From positions 1 to 64,000 of the IMG/VR virus record IMGVR_UViG_3300027734_000055: a stretch of DNA of 64,000 bases; one strand, given 5' to 3'. Positions within the stretch are counted from its first letter, which is position 1. The number at the start of each line of letters is the position of its first letter. This document shows, piece after piece, positions 25,596 through 56,584 of this stretch. This DNA is from a virus. The notes under the pieces are model-generated. The model searched no databases. It saw only the letters and a list, made by a program, of their open reading frames with translations, and was not told the origin of the DNA. Made by a program: the position numbers and the translations under genes.

Positions 25596-28434
25596 TGTCT
25601 AATCCTTTTAATAAGGCTTCAGGAAGAGTAGCTAAATTTATCTTATAAACACTGGTAGCTGATTTACCAAAATCTTTCCATCCTGCATTCATACGTTTCT
25701 TAACATTAGATCCCGCATCTACTTCAATACCTGATTCTTTCATTTGGAATAAGAATTCCTTACGACTGACTGACATTTCACTTAAGTATTTATCAAACTC
25801 AGTTTTAGAAATCCACATCGTATGCTCGTCATTTTCTACGCGGATTACAAAAGCAGTACGTGGTTCCATCGTAATCTTATTGTCTTTGAATGCTAGAATG
25901 CCAGTTTGATTTTTATTAATATAATCTGAAAGCACTGATTCATAATCAATACTATTAACCTTAACTACATTGTCTTTAATAGTAATCATTTCAGTTACAA
26001 TCTTTTTATATATTCTATCAAGATCAAACTGTGTAATACCTGACGCATTAGTAATTTCACCTGATGTCATAGCAGCTGCAACTAAGTTTTGATAAAAGCG
26101 ATATGATGTATCATCGCCAAAGTCTTTAGAAAACTTAGCGCACCACTTATCAATCATCTTACCAATTTCTAATTCACCTGTTTTGTATACAGCTTTGATA
26201 AACTCTGGTCCTGCCCATCCATGATTAAATCTAAATGAATCAAATATCTCACGACCAAGTGTTGCGTCGTCTCTAAATACATCAGGCTTTCTTACTGATA
26301 GTTCAATAAGTCTTGCTACCTCACCATTAGGATCTTTTTTCAACGTAGTTAATTTATCGTATAAAGAATGATTTGATGTAAAGATTGCAATCAACGATGC
26401 TGACATCTCGTGTTCACGTTCTGCATTTACTGAAGCTTGCATTCTGATCTTAGATTTACCTTGTGAAATCTTATGGATCAATTGTGATAATGTCTTAGGT
26501 AATATATTACCCACCTCATCGAGGCCAAATGGAATATTATGTAGACCTAAGTATCGGCCTGTCATACCATTTTCTGTTGCATCTAACACAGATAGATCCT
26601 TTGGATTACCCCATACACTTAGTGCTGAATATAAAGCACCTGTCTTAGCTGCACCTGATTCACCTGTTAAACAGATTGTCACACCTGATGTAGATGTATA
26701 GTCCATGAGTGCTGAACCAAATCCTGCTAACATTGTAAACGCATGTAGTTCTAAACTTGGTTTATTAAGTTTATTAGCTGCTTCTTTCCATTCTTCGTAC
26801 TTACCTGCTGGGGCTAAGTGTTTAGCAATACCTCGACATAATGGTGAAGTCGGAGATGATACATCTTTAAAATCTCTTGTGTATTCAAGCGCACCAATGA
26901 CAAACGATTCTCTGTTTGGTGTCCATCCCATTTGCATCCGCATAACATCTGCAGCTGACTTGTTCATTAAGTATTGTCCCCATTTAATTATGTAGTTCAT
27001 AAGATATCCTACCTCCTTGTTTCCGGGATTAAATAAAACGCCATTACTTGCAATAGCTTCTTTAAACTTCTCAATGGCATATACATGCTTGATAGGTAAT
27101 AAGAATTCTCTTTCGGGGTCGTTTGGTAACATGGCCTTCATGAGCAGACATTCTCCATCTGCAACACTAAAGATTCGTTTCGTTGGGTAGATATCATAAA
27201 GTGAAACTATGATAGGATCTTTGGGGATCGGTACTCCATTTTCATCGTATTCATGCGGTGGTAAGTAATATATACCTCCGTTTTTACCGTAGACAAAAGG
27301 TTGTAATTCTTGTGGTAACCCATTGAGCTTGGTTGTAATTTTTGTAGTTTGGTTAACTACTTCTGTTTTAGTTTCTAGTACCGTCTCGCTGACAGGTTGT
27401 GACATCTGTAGTTCTTTACCTATGGCTAACGGATTTGTAATCTTGCCTCTAAACGGACACCCTTCGCAACCGCCCGGATTAACGTTGTTAAAAGTATCGC
27501 AAGAGTGTGGTTTATCTTGTGTAGCTTGGGCCTTTCTATTAGTAGCTTCTCGGTCATAGCCTGGATGCTCTTCTGACATCATATGGATCGCTGTGTCACG
27601 ATCAGAACAATGTTGTGCTATGGATAACCCAGAATACCAAATAGGTTCTTGTAAAGTCTTTGCATTTTCTAAGATAAACTTAATCTGATTACATCCCTTA
27701 CCTTCTAAAGACTTAACTGCGATATCGGAAAACTTAGTTTGGAAATTATCCAACTTCATCATCTTACGTTGATCTTCACTTAGTCCTGTCTTAGGTAACG
27801 CTGCAATTAAATCGTCATGCGTTTGTGCAACAGCGCCTAAGAAAGTTTTAAACTCGTCAAATGAGTACATTGGGATATCTGTGCCCAATACTTTAGTAGG
27901 ACTTGGGGGATCTGTTTTTTGATTAAACGTATTTGGACAACGTAAAATCCTAGCTAAATCTGCTGTGACCACAGGATCTATGTTAAGACCGTGTGTTAGG
28001 CAAAAGTTTTTAAACTTCTCAGCGTAGGGTTTCCATTCTGCTGCAGGTACGTCTTGGTCAAATAACCAGTATGCGTGAACCCCACCGCCTGAATCTATTC
28101 TCACTGGAGGTGGCAATTCATTATCTAAAACAAATTTATCGATAGCATCAAGGGCGTCTTCTTTAGACTCATATCCTTTGCCTTCGCCGACATCTAAATC
28201 TACAAAGAAAGATTTAACTGCTTTAGCTTCCTCTGCCTTACGACTATAACCATTGAATGAACTAAGTGCTACAAAGATATTAGTCTTCGTATTTTTCTTA
28301 GATTCAACAAATGATTCTAACTCATCTATGTTTTCTACGAATTTGTGCTTAGTGATCTTAGCTATCGGATCGATAGTAGCTACACAATATACGCCTGTAG
28401 ATGGCAATGCTTTCTTATAAAATTCTTTAATCAT
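25582..28434 (-). CDS. Primase-helicase (D5/DUF927-type, 950 aa)
   Basis: The N-terminal ~200 residues look like an archaeo-eukaryotic-type primase region (FVDLDVGEGKGY; VRIDSGGGVHAYWLF; ADLARILRCPNTFNQK). Around 311-330 is a Cys cluster (C-x-GGCEGCPFRG) like a zinc or Fe-S site. The C-terminal half is an ATPase with Walker A GESGAAKT (~residue 585-592) and Walker B FGLDEVGN, resembling DUF927-type phage helicases. It would prime and unwind DNA at the fork. The ATG is the only in-frame start; a stop lies upstream. Confidence 0.8.
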   Translation of the reverse strand: MIKEFYKKALPSTGVYCVATIDPIAKITKHKFVENIDELESFVESKKNTKTNIFVALSSFNGYSRKAEEAKAVKSFFVDLDVGEGKGYESKEDALDAIDKFVLDNELPPPVRIDSGGGVHAYWLFDQDVPAAEWKPYAEKFKNFCLTHGLNIDPVVTADLARILRCPNTFNQKTDPPSPTKVLGTDIPMYSFDEFKTFLGAVAQTHDDLIAALPKTGLSEDQRKMMKLDNFQTKFSDIAVKSLEGKGCNQIKFILENAKTLQEPIWYSGLSIAQHCSDRDTAIHMMSEEHPGYDREATNRKAQATQDKPHSCDTFNNVNPGGCEGCPFRGKITNPLAIGKELQMSQPVSETVLETKTEVVNQTTKITTKLNGLPQELQPFVYGKNGGIYYLPPHEYDENGVPIPKDPIIVSLYDIYPTKRIFSVADGECLLMKAMLPNDPEREFLLPIKHVYAIEKFKEAIASNGVLFNPGNKEVGYLMNYIIKWGQYLMNKSAADVMRMQMGWTPNRESFVIGALEYTRDFKDVSSPTSPLCRGIAKHLAPAGKYEEWKEAANKLNKPSLELHAFTMLAGFGSALMDYTSTSGVTICLTGESGAAKTGALYSALSVWGNPKDLSVLDATENGMTGRYLGLHNIPFGLDEVGNILPKTLSQLIHKISQGKSKIRMQASVNAEREHEMSASLIAIFTSNHSLYDKLTTLKKDPNGEVARLIELSVRKPDVFRDDATLGREIFDSFRFNHGWAGPEFIKAVYKTGELEIGKMIDKWCAKFSKDFGDDTSYRFYQNLVAAAMTSGEITNASGITQFDLDRIYKKIVTEMITIKDNVVKVNSIDYESVLSDYINKNQTGILAFKDNKITMEPRTAFVIRVENDEHTMWISKTEFDKYLSEMSVSRKEFLFQMKESGIEVDAGSNVKKRMNAGWKDFGKSATSVYKINLATLPEALLKGLDSESH

Positions 28435-54855: not shown

Positions 54856-55770
54856 ATGGCTATTTCACGCGCACAGCTCCTTAAGGAGCTCTTACCAGGA
54901 CTAAATGCACTATTTGGTCTAGAATACAAACGTTACGGTGAAGAATCTAAAGAAATTTACGAAACTGAAACATCAGAACGTTCATTCGAAGAAGAAACAA
55001 AACTTTCAGGTTTCTCAGCAGCACCAGTCAAAAACGAAGGCACTGCAATCGCTTATGACAATGCTCAAGAAGCTTGGACAGCTCGATACAATCATCAAAC
55101 TATCGCTCTTGGCTTTTCTTTAACAGAAGAAGCTGTAGAAGATAACTTGTATGATACATTATCAGCACGTTACACAAAGGCTTTAGCTCGCGCTATGGCT
55201 TACACAAAACAAGTTAAGGCTGCTTCAGTTCTTAATAATGGTTTCAATAACTCCGGCTCTTATGACGGTGGTGACGGCGTATCATTATTTAACACAGCTC
55301 ATCCTCTTGTTTCAGGTGGCACAAACAGCAACACTCAATCAACTCCTACAGACTTGAACGAAACAGCATTGGAAAATGCAGTTATTCAAATCGCTGCTTG
55401 GACTGATGAACGTGGTCTTTTGATCGCTGCTCAACCACGTAAGTTAGTAGTTCCACCAGGTAATCAATTCGTTGCAACTCGTTTGCTCGAAACTGAACTT
55501 CGTGTTTCTACAGCTGACAATGACATCAATGCTATTAAGAATAATGGTTCAATTCCAGAAGGTTACACAATTAACCACTTCTTAACAGATCCTGATGCTT
55601 ACTTCTTAACAACTGATGTACCTAACGGCATGAAACACTTTGTGCGTACTCCGTTATCTACTTCAATGGATGGCGATTTTGACACAGGCAATGTTAGATA
55701 CAAAGCTCGTGAGCGTTATTCATTCGGTTGGTCAGATCCTCTCGGTATGTGGGGTTCACCAGGCGCTTAA
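54856..55770 (+). CDS. Major capsid protein (304 aa)
   Basis: AISRAQLLKELLPGLNALFGLEYKRYGEESKEIYETETSERSFEEETKLSGFSAA is an N-terminal arm type of coat proteins; the middle has TARYNHQTIALGFSLTEEAVEDNLYDTLSARYTKALARAMAYTKQVKAASVLNNGF, and the C-terminus has RYKARERYSFGWSDPLGMWGSPGA, which resembles Mu-type/HK97-like coats. It is followed by a terminator, as often for the most abundant product. Confidence 0.9.
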   Translation: MAISRAQLLKELLPGLNALFGLEYKRYGEESKEIYETETSERSFEEETKLSGFSAAPVKNEGTAIAYDNAQEAWTARYNHQTIALGFSLTEEAVEDNLYDTLSARYTKALARAMAYTKQVKAASVLNNGFNNSGSYDGGDGVSLFNTAHPLVSGGTNSNTQSTPTDLNETALENAVIQIAAWTDERGLLIAAQPRKLVVPPGNQFVATRLLETELRVSTADNDINAIKNNGSIPEGYTINHFLTDPDAYFLTTDVPNGMKHFVRTPLSTSMDGDFDTGNVRYKARERYSFGWSDPLGMWGSPGA

Positions 55771-55921: not shown

Positions 55922-55999
55922 ATGAAAACATGGACTAAACCAGCAGCAACTGAAATGAGATTTGGCTTTGAAGTAACTATGTACGTAATGAATAAGTAA
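55922..55999 (+). CDS. pqqA: PqqA-like PQQ precursor peptide (25 aa)
   Basis: The complete 25-residue product begins MKTWTKPAATEMRFGFEVTM and ends YVMNK, with TAGGAGATTATT as a strong ribosome site. It matches PqqA throughout: WTKPA near the N-terminus, the R-x-G-F segment, and the E17-V-T-M-Y21 core, where E17 and Y21 are the residues that PqqE joins to make PQQ. From memory, Acinetobacter PqqA reads WTKPAFTDLRIGFEVTMY in the same region, 14 of 18 identical. PqqA is a RiPP precursor carried by PqqD to radical-SAM PqqE. The window has no pqqBCDE, so host enzymes are required. Flanked by terminators, it behaves like a moron. No convincing promoter is seen. Confidence 0.9.
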   Translation: MKTWTKPAATEMRFGFEVTMYVMNK

Positions 56000-56020
56000 T
56001 AGTTCTTTGCTTTAAATTAA

Positions 56021-56040
56021 GGGGCTTCGGCCCCTTTTTT
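56021..56040 (+). terminator. GGGGC-TTCG-GCCCC terminator after pqqA
   Basis: A perfect five-pair GC stem with a TTCG tetraloop and six T's, 21 bases after the pqqA stop. Among the strongest terminators in the window. Confidence 0.9.
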
Positions 56041-56042
56041 AC

Positions 56043-56070
56043 TTGCTTTATATATAAAATGTAGTATTAT
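56043..56070 (+). promoter_or_regulatory. Rightward promoter upstream of structured leader
   Basis: TTGCTT (56043-56048), a 16-base spacer and TATTAT (56065-56070, 5 of 6). Predicted +1 near 56077, so the mRNA would begin with the structured leader. It lies immediately after the pqqA terminator, so expression of 56159 is likely independent. Confidence 0.55.
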
Positions 56071-56076
56071 TCTCCT

Positions 56077-56158
56077 ATCCGGGTATATCCGGTTTATTAG
56101 ACTGTCCCGGCAGACGCATATAAGACTAATAGACTTAACTCTATATGGAGAAAATCAA
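56077..56158 (+). ncRNA. Structured 5' leader of 56159 gene
   Basis: CCGG-GTATAT-CCGG (56079-56092) forms a first hairpin. TATTAG (56095-56100) pairs with CTAATA (56126-56131) to enclose CTG-TCCCGG-CAG (56102-56113). The structure sits between a promoter and a well-spaced TATGGAG ribosome site. It does not match any riboswitch class I know. Confidence 0.5.
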
Positions 56159-56584
56159 ATGGCTTATACAACCTTTAGCGGCCCAGTCCGTTCATTAGCA
56201 GGCTTTGCAGAACCAGTAACATACATCAAAGCTACAGACGTAGTAGCAGGTGAAGTTATTATTGAAGCAGGCGCTAACGTAGTTATTCTTTCACCAGCAG
56301 ATGGTGGTCCAGCAACTGAAGCTGCTTTAGTACTTCCAGAAGTAGTTAGTGGTGCATTTACTTTAGCTGATCAACCAGCAGATGCTCAATACAATGGTAT
56401 TAAAGGCTCAGTATTGAACTACGGTGCAGTTGCTCACGTATTAAAAGGCTACGGCACACAAAAAGTTAACGGTTCAACAACAGGCGTTGTTATTCCAGCT
56501 GGCTATGTTACTCAATGGGGTGGCAACGGTAACCAAGCTGCGCCTTGGGCTGCTGCTAACTCAGTTCTTTCAACAGCTAAATAA
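56159..56584 (+). CDS. Putative capsid-associated protein (141 aa)
   Basis: MAYTTFSGPVRSLAGFAEPVTYIKATDVVAGEVIIEAGANVVILSPADGGP is beta-rich, Gly/Ala-rich and has no Cys. It is a frequent neighbour of podovirus capsid genes in aquatic phages. A head decoration or cement role is a guess. Controlled by its own promoter and structured leader. Confidence 0.6.
   Translation: MAYTTFSGPVRSLAGFAEPVTYIKATDVVAGEVIIEAGANVVILSPADGGPATEAALVLPEVVSGAFTLADQPADAQYNGIKGSVLNYGAVAHVLKGYGTQKVNGSTTGVVIPAGYVTQWGGNGNQAAPWAAANSVLSTAK

Follow-up and report, generated by a model that had tools for sequence, protein, structure and literature searches.

In Escherichia coli, the alpha-operon (S4) operator is a pseudoknot at the ribosome site that controls initiation. 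Pseudoknots also underlie the SAM-II, preQ1, and fluoride riboswitches, which are small and carry their expression helix next to the Shine-Dalgarno. The E. coli rpsO (S15) translational operator is likewise a pseudoknot at the ribosome site controlling initiation (PMC3014915). In phages, the leader pseudoknot of gene 32 in T4, T2, and RB69 acts as the translational operator for gp32, and a 2010 review presents this T4-type element as perhaps the only viral pseudoknot in translation autoregulation (PMC3014915). There, a single pseudoknot is separated from the start codon by 67 nt, which include an unstructured A+U-rich operator.

Here we describe a leader RNA found in positions 1-64,000 of the IMG/VR virus record IMGVR_UViG_3300027734_000055 (the window, i.e. 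the whole 64,000-nt stretch analysed; the full record is 74.8 kb). Gene 32 is its closest functional parallel, as both systems place a pseudoknot in a phage mRNA leader upstream of the ribosome site of one gene. Unlike gene 32, this leader is a double pseudoknot that ends directly at the Shine-Dalgarno, precedes a virion gene, and occurs in unrelated phages; an unstructured A+U-rich operator of the gene 32 type is not present, i.e. the last strand of the fold (D′) ends at the Shine-Dalgarno itself. It differs from the rpsO and alpha-operon operators in topology and in the genes involved, with no sequence relation found, and none of the SAM-II, preQ1, or fluoride riboswitches matches it in Rfam, its context being one virion gene. 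A search of Rfam 15 returns no match at gathering scores in 14 homologous loci, in line with the initial annotation, which had described a structured leader of no known class; with loose thresholds, the window and two homologues (L139 and L122) give weak chance-level matches only, all far below the cut-off. In the literature, we found no description of this double-pseudoknot leader. We file it as a new RNA family of a kind already known, namely a leader pseudoknot controlling translation.

The leader is part of a virion block with the order 199-aa gene, major capsid gene, terminator-like hairpin, PqqA gene, terminator, promoter with leader, and 141-aa gene. Its main features are:

54856-55770: Mu gpT-like major capsid gene, upstream of the leader
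55922-55999: gene for a 25-aa PqqA peptide (Pfam PqqA PF08042, E 8e-11), located after the capsid gene and before the leader; it has a terminator of its own
56019-56036: pqqA terminator hairpin, directly before the leader promoter
56043-56070, + strand: promoter, with -35-like TTGCTT (56043-56048), a 16-nt spacer, and -10-like TATTAT (56065-56070)
56077-56150, + strand: whole leader RNA, from the predicted 5′ end to the Shine-Dalgarno
56159-56584, + strand: gene for a 141-aa virion protein, a capsid cement or spike candidate, following the Mu gpT-like major capsid gene

Inspection of the sequence finds the promoter TTGCTT-16-TATTAT present after the pqqA terminator exactly as first annotated. 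From its position, transcription is predicted to start at about 56077, and the first strand of the fold (A) begins approximately 2 nt from this point. The arrangement recurs among homologues: in 49 of 67 non-redundant sequences, a TA-type -10 hexamer ends 6-9 nt 5′ of strand A, compared with 9.1 in shuffles. Judged from the -10 position only, the 5′ end of the transcript would thus fall inside the structure. With the -10 box at a fixed distance before strand A and the Shine-Dalgarno located where D′ stops, the RNA appears to occupy nearly all of the 5′ UTR, its 5′ edge lying close to the first transcribed base and its 3′ edge at the Shine-Dalgarno. The PqqA gene, which is also found upstream of the leader in close relatives (e.g. 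L082), suggests a methylotroph-type host.

Comparison across homologues, read with a structure parser, shows the leader as a double pseudoknot whose strands follow each other as A B C A′ C′ D B′ D′. A helix of 9 bp, P1 (B/B′), encloses a second helix, P2 (C/C′). Pseudoknot 1 joins the 5′ strand A to the loop of P2, while pseudoknot 2 joins strand D, in the junction, to strand D′ adjoining the Shine-Dalgarno. In the window, these parts are placed as follows:

56079-56083, + strand: strand A, CCGGG, the 5′ strand of pseudoknot 1, pairing with 56106-56110
56089-56092, + strand: second CCGG, which could instead pair locally with strand A as a hairpin and which overlaps P1
56092-56100, + strand: strand B, GTTTATTAG, the 5′ strand of P1
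56101, + strand: A101, unpaired between P1 and P2 (99% A in 96 sequences)
56102-56104, + strand: strand C, CTG, the 5′ strand of P2
56106-56110, + strand: strand A′, CCCGG, within the P2 loop, partner of strand A
56111-56113, + strand: strand C′, CAG, the 3′ strand of P2
56114-56116, + strand: junction ACG (A114 99%, C115 98% in 96 sequences)
56117-56122, + strand: strand D, CATATA, junction loop, the 5′ strand of pseudoknot 2
56123-56125, + strand: junction AGA (G124 98%, A125 100% in 96 sequences)
56126-56134, + strand: strand B′, CTAATAGAC, the 3′ strand of P1
56139-56150, + strand: small hairpin formed by CTC/GAG, in which D′ is the loop and the 3′ arm is part of the Shine-Dalgarno
56142-56147, + strand: strand D′, TATATG, the 3′ strand of pseudoknot 2
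56147-56150, + strand: Shine-Dalgarno GGAG, sharing one base with D′

Five junction bases (A101, A114, C115, G124, and A125) are nearly invariant, at 98-100% in 96 sequences. Among these, C115 probably pairs with G124, because the two leaders that change both positions (L028 and L034) have T and A there. A covariance model of the leader (R1) scores 66.8 bits at 56077-56149 as the sole match in the 74.8-kb record, the window sequence being itself among the 20 members of the model.

Taken alone, the sequence folds with an energy that does not improve on shuffled versions (z -0.15), so the case for the structure rests on comparison. ViennaRNA with held helices is also uninformative on this leader; both results follow from the fact that nested models cannot represent pseudoknots. 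The RNA may have been overlooked because single-sequence folding does not reveal its structure. Homologues of the 141-aa gene were taken from IMG/VR and the regions upstream of them were read, and these leaders have one common pattern despite wide sequence divergence. In a MAFFT alignment of 20 sequences, 97.4% of cells are paired, vs 72.9% in shuffled and 31-46% in slid controls. A covariance model was then built on P1 and P2 only, with A/A′ left out of its structure, and applied to 80 viral contigs retrieved by their capsid protein only. The RNA is found in 70 of the 80, on the same strand and once each, a short way downstream of the capsid gene or behind a gene inserted there. One of the remaining ten (L039) carries the RNA by eye, and in the other nine, the sequence stops before the next gene or other genes are inserted there; none of these ten has a 141-aa-type gene lacking the RNA.

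The main alignment, obtained with this model, holds 96 sequences with a mean identity of 51%. Across A/A′, P1, and P2, 98.1% of its cells are paired (69.6% when shuffled, 19-55% when slid), and two-sided compensatory changes are present at 15 of the 17 pairs. Specifically, all 9 pairs of P1 show two-sided changes, with 96.6% pairing in the 96 homologues, and P2 is paired at 100%, its middle pair being changed on both sides in 36 sequences. Strands A and A′ are paired in 99.6% of cells and have two-sided changes at 4 of 5 pairs, though this helix is absent from the structure of the model; a partner-swap test scores the native combinations at 14.2 vs 10.0 after swapping (sd 0.27, z 15.5). The G-T pairs seen in P1 are taken to indicate selection on RNA rather than DNA. 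The long-range TATTAG/CTAATA pairing proposed in the initial annotation is real, and forms the inner part of the 9-bp P1, where it encloses CTG/CAG and where all 9 pairs covary.

The D/D′ helix (CATATA/TATATG) adjoining the Shine-Dalgarno had not been part of that annotation. It was assessed with the swap test, a fixed-column count on the alignment (A4) being unsuitable because D and D′ shift by at least one base between types. Native partners score 14.5 vs 9.8 when swapped (sd 0.29, z 16.3), and nearly all of the 39 helix types listed are well paired, including CATATA/TATATG, CATACA/TGTATG, ACATGC/GCATGT, TAGTAG/CTACTA, ATGCAA/TTGCAT, and CTTACCA/TGGTAAG. Four related leaders (L119, L120, L129, and L135) have a missing or weak pseudoknot 2.

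A local CCGG/CCGG hairpin (56079-56092), which was also proposed at first, is possible in a subset of leaders but is not the general fold, in which CCGG(G) pairs with the P2 loop (99.6% of cells). When the covariation check is run on both early proposals, TATTAG/CTAATA covaries strongly, whereas CCGG/CCGG fails in about half of the homologues. The hairpin is mostly limited to CCGG-, CTGG-, or CCAGG-type leaders, and its swap score (z 5.8) is driven mainly by palindromic CCGG types. Where it can form, it would do so at the expense of A/A′ and the foot of P1. As the main fold, it is ruled out: homologues replace it by the pseudoknot with the P2 loop.

The end of the fold is closely aligned with the ribosome site. 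Of 73 homologues, 37 have the Shine-Dalgarno starting precisely where D′ ends (mode 0) and 69 have it within -4 to +6 nt of that point, and D′ mostly ends 10-15 nt before the start codon. The small hairpin around D′ has a score of 7 or more in 70 of 96 homologues and a swap z of 6.0, which is weaker support than the other helices have. Not every leader type masks the Shine-Dalgarno: in the GTG...CAC type, it lies outside this hairpin.

Two RNA patterns, both blind to genes, were also run on IMG/VR; each matches at least 120 stretches, and the matches listed comprise 238 contigs. A recognised version of the same virion gene lies downstream in 228 of these; 3 more have near variants by eye, 1 is ambiguous (L291), and 6 have no readable gene, i.e. 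the same virion gene follows the RNA in at least 231 of the 238 matches listed. Downstream N-termini among these matches read M..TTFSGP (211), M.FATHLGPW (10), or M..STTQSIWR (7). The capsid gene is present at most 2.5 kb upstream in 215 of the 238, and no metabolic gene is seen downstream of the RNA in any of them. When whole records are searched, 13 have a match, and all but one of these (12) contain a single copy. Record G002 has a second copy, each copy following its own capsid gene at opposite contig ends, and is probably a mixed assembly. At opposite ends (L140 and L141) of the 65-kb record behind L013, the capsid gene, the endonuclease gene, and the leader all occur twice, the genes downstream of the leaders being different; this record is probably a mixed assembly of two related phages.

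Among named phages, the RNA is carried by Pelagibacter phage HTVC023P (leader at 26774-26844), phage DSL-LC04, and ct7L0027, with divergent versions of poor model score in HTVC027P and 023Pt_psg01. It was not found in CRP-901/902, Planktothrix Pag-Yong1, or the Alcaligenes or Caulobacter relatives. In a set of 200 genomes related to a Pelagibacter MAG, the only match is in that MAG, which holds phage genes, and the RNA is absent from the other 199. Phage records searched by nucleotide sequence give no match, and the same is true for a protein search with the 141-aa protein of the window; a distant relative led to HTVC023P and HTVC027P.

The 141-aa protein has no PHROG match, no significant Pfam match, and no relative in the PDB by sequence search. 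Its predicted model (mean pLDDT 81.5) resembles phage tail/spike domains (T4 gp9/gp10-type and TSP4) as well as a phage capsid spike, with Z of 8-10, though a shared fold shows no function. In DSL-LC04, the gene at the same position is annotated as 'cement protein'. The protein is likely to be a capsid-surface accessory protein, as far as the model and gene position indicate. The gene after the leader has at least three N-terminal types (TTFSGP, THLGPW, and TTQSIWR) on variable bodies (e.g. L004, L041, and L052), two of which are weakly related (31% identity), and this variation suggests modular exchange of the capsid-surface protein.

The initial annotation had offered a translational switch, an RNA stabiliser, or a factor-binding site; any of these may apply, and the strict one-gene specificity and the contact with the Shine-Dalgarno favor translational control. 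We infer, with confidence that is evenly balanced, that the leader acts in cis on translation initiation at one capsid-accessory gene, probably under the control of a phage protein. Two features are the grounds for proposing an action on initiation: the last helix touches the Shine-Dalgarno or overlaps it, and the RNA is carried by a single gene. In our judgement, the gene specificity and phage-only distribution favor a trans-acting phage protein over a metabolite, and the invariant junction favors it over plain stabilisation. The 5′ strand is locked into the P2 loop and the strand before the Shine-Dalgarno into the P1/P2 junction; under this mechanism, the fold would gate ribosome binding. 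As long as it persists, nucleotides adjacent to the Shine-Dalgarno would be unavailable, as would part of the Shine-Dalgarno itself in most homologues. The lifetime of the fold would be set in trans by a factor that is most likely a capsid or cement protein of the phage acting in feedback, and it would determine how much capsid-accessory protein is supplied per capsid protein. In addition, the 5′ pseudoknot would probably protect the 5′ end of the message from decay.

Some findings speak against gating: D/D′ is missing or weak in four leaders and Shine-Dalgarno masking does not extend to all types, while CRP-901/902 have the same gene family behind a different leader, and the leader of the Planktothrix phage has no match. 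Feedback by the downstream protein itself is weakened because the RNA precedes genes with three different N-termini. More tentative is the fuller proposal of a new viral RNA class, i.e. a double-pseudoknot operator, present once per genome in HTVC023P-type phages and their freshwater relatives, through which a capsid or cement protein would set its own dosage.

The main rival to a regulated element is a constitutive stabiliser that also presents the ribosome site. The fold would then hide the 5′ end from RppH and RNase E (or RNase J) and leave the Shine-Dalgarno accessible on its 3′ side; the message would be long-lived and strongly translated, with no regulation. Structures at the 5′ terminus do sequester the 5′ end and block RppH and RNase E (PMC3997798), the start of strand A so close to the predicted transcript start is as expected, and virion proteins are needed in large amounts. 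However, a simple hairpin would suffice for this, the five invariant unpaired bases and fixed helix lengths exceed the need, and the element serves one gene only; what is conserved is a specific tertiary fold, not any stem-loop. We consider stabilisation as the whole function less likely than regulation, but the most serious of the alternatives.

If the leader sensed a small molecule or an ion in the manner of a riboswitch, the helix near the Shine-Dalgarno serving as its expression part, this would account for the compact pseudoknot, the invariant junction, and the helix abutting the Shine-Dalgarno, all as in pseudoknot riboswitches, and the conserved fold with its five nearly invariant junction bases is aptamer-like. 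Riboswitches usually recur before several metabolic genes, whereas this RNA, among the matches listed, precedes one virion gene only and not metabolic or transport genes, and it is absent from the 199 other host-type genomes, which makes a sensor improbable. Slightly less probable again is a promoter-proximal antiterminator RNA, similar to HK022 put, that would modify RNA polymerase for the downstream late genes. The RNA does stand at the very 5′ end of a transcript running into further virion genes, but such a role gives no reason for the last helix to abut the Shine-Dalgarno so exactly, and no bypassed downstream terminators have been shown. Double pseudoknots are typical of several ribozymes, and a self-cleaving or processed RNA (e.g. 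HDV-like) could trim the message at the leader. The promoter already sets the transcript start at the 5′ edge of the RNA, though, no Rfam ribozyme matches, and the strand order, with A′ inside the P2 loop, is unlike that of HDV (P1 P2 P3 P3′ P1′ P2′), and we see very little prospect for this option. An artefact of chance or base composition, which the shuffled-like folding energy of the single sequence might suggest, is excluded by the covariation, the capsid-retrieved contigs, and the swap tests.

Control of translation initiation by the leader, if true, would be a rare phage example of translation controlled by a pseudoknot, here before one capsid-accessory gene. Its carriers belong to a very common aquatic phage group, HTVC023P-type phages and their freshwater relatives being among the most abundant viruses known, and HTVC023P on HTCC1062 is a cultured phage-host pair that provides a ready model. 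The leader also offers an annotation marker for HTVC023P-type phages and a means of studying how the stoichiometry of capsid proteins is determined.

The interval separating the capsid gene from the leader seems to be a hot spot for insertions. For example, L018, L042, L048, L140, and L141 have homing-endonuclease-like genes there (reading like YYFTG.PC..GH), and L071 has an inserted GIY-YIG-like gene.

The same position also holds other structures. In the Roseobacter phages CRP-902 and CRP-901 (L146 and L147), the gene family downstream is the same (MATSTFS...) but the leader departs from the fold; between the capsid gene and the next gene, a stem of CTGTCT with AGACAG is possible, ending at the Shine-Dalgarno. 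In Planktothrix phage Pag-Yong1 (L143, 3440-3507), a different possible pseudoknot occurs at the same place, formed by GACCCGGGG/CCCCGGGTC and CCGTCT/AGACGG. The latter helix touches the Shine-Dalgarno, and this pseudoknot is perhaps an independent solution to the same need.
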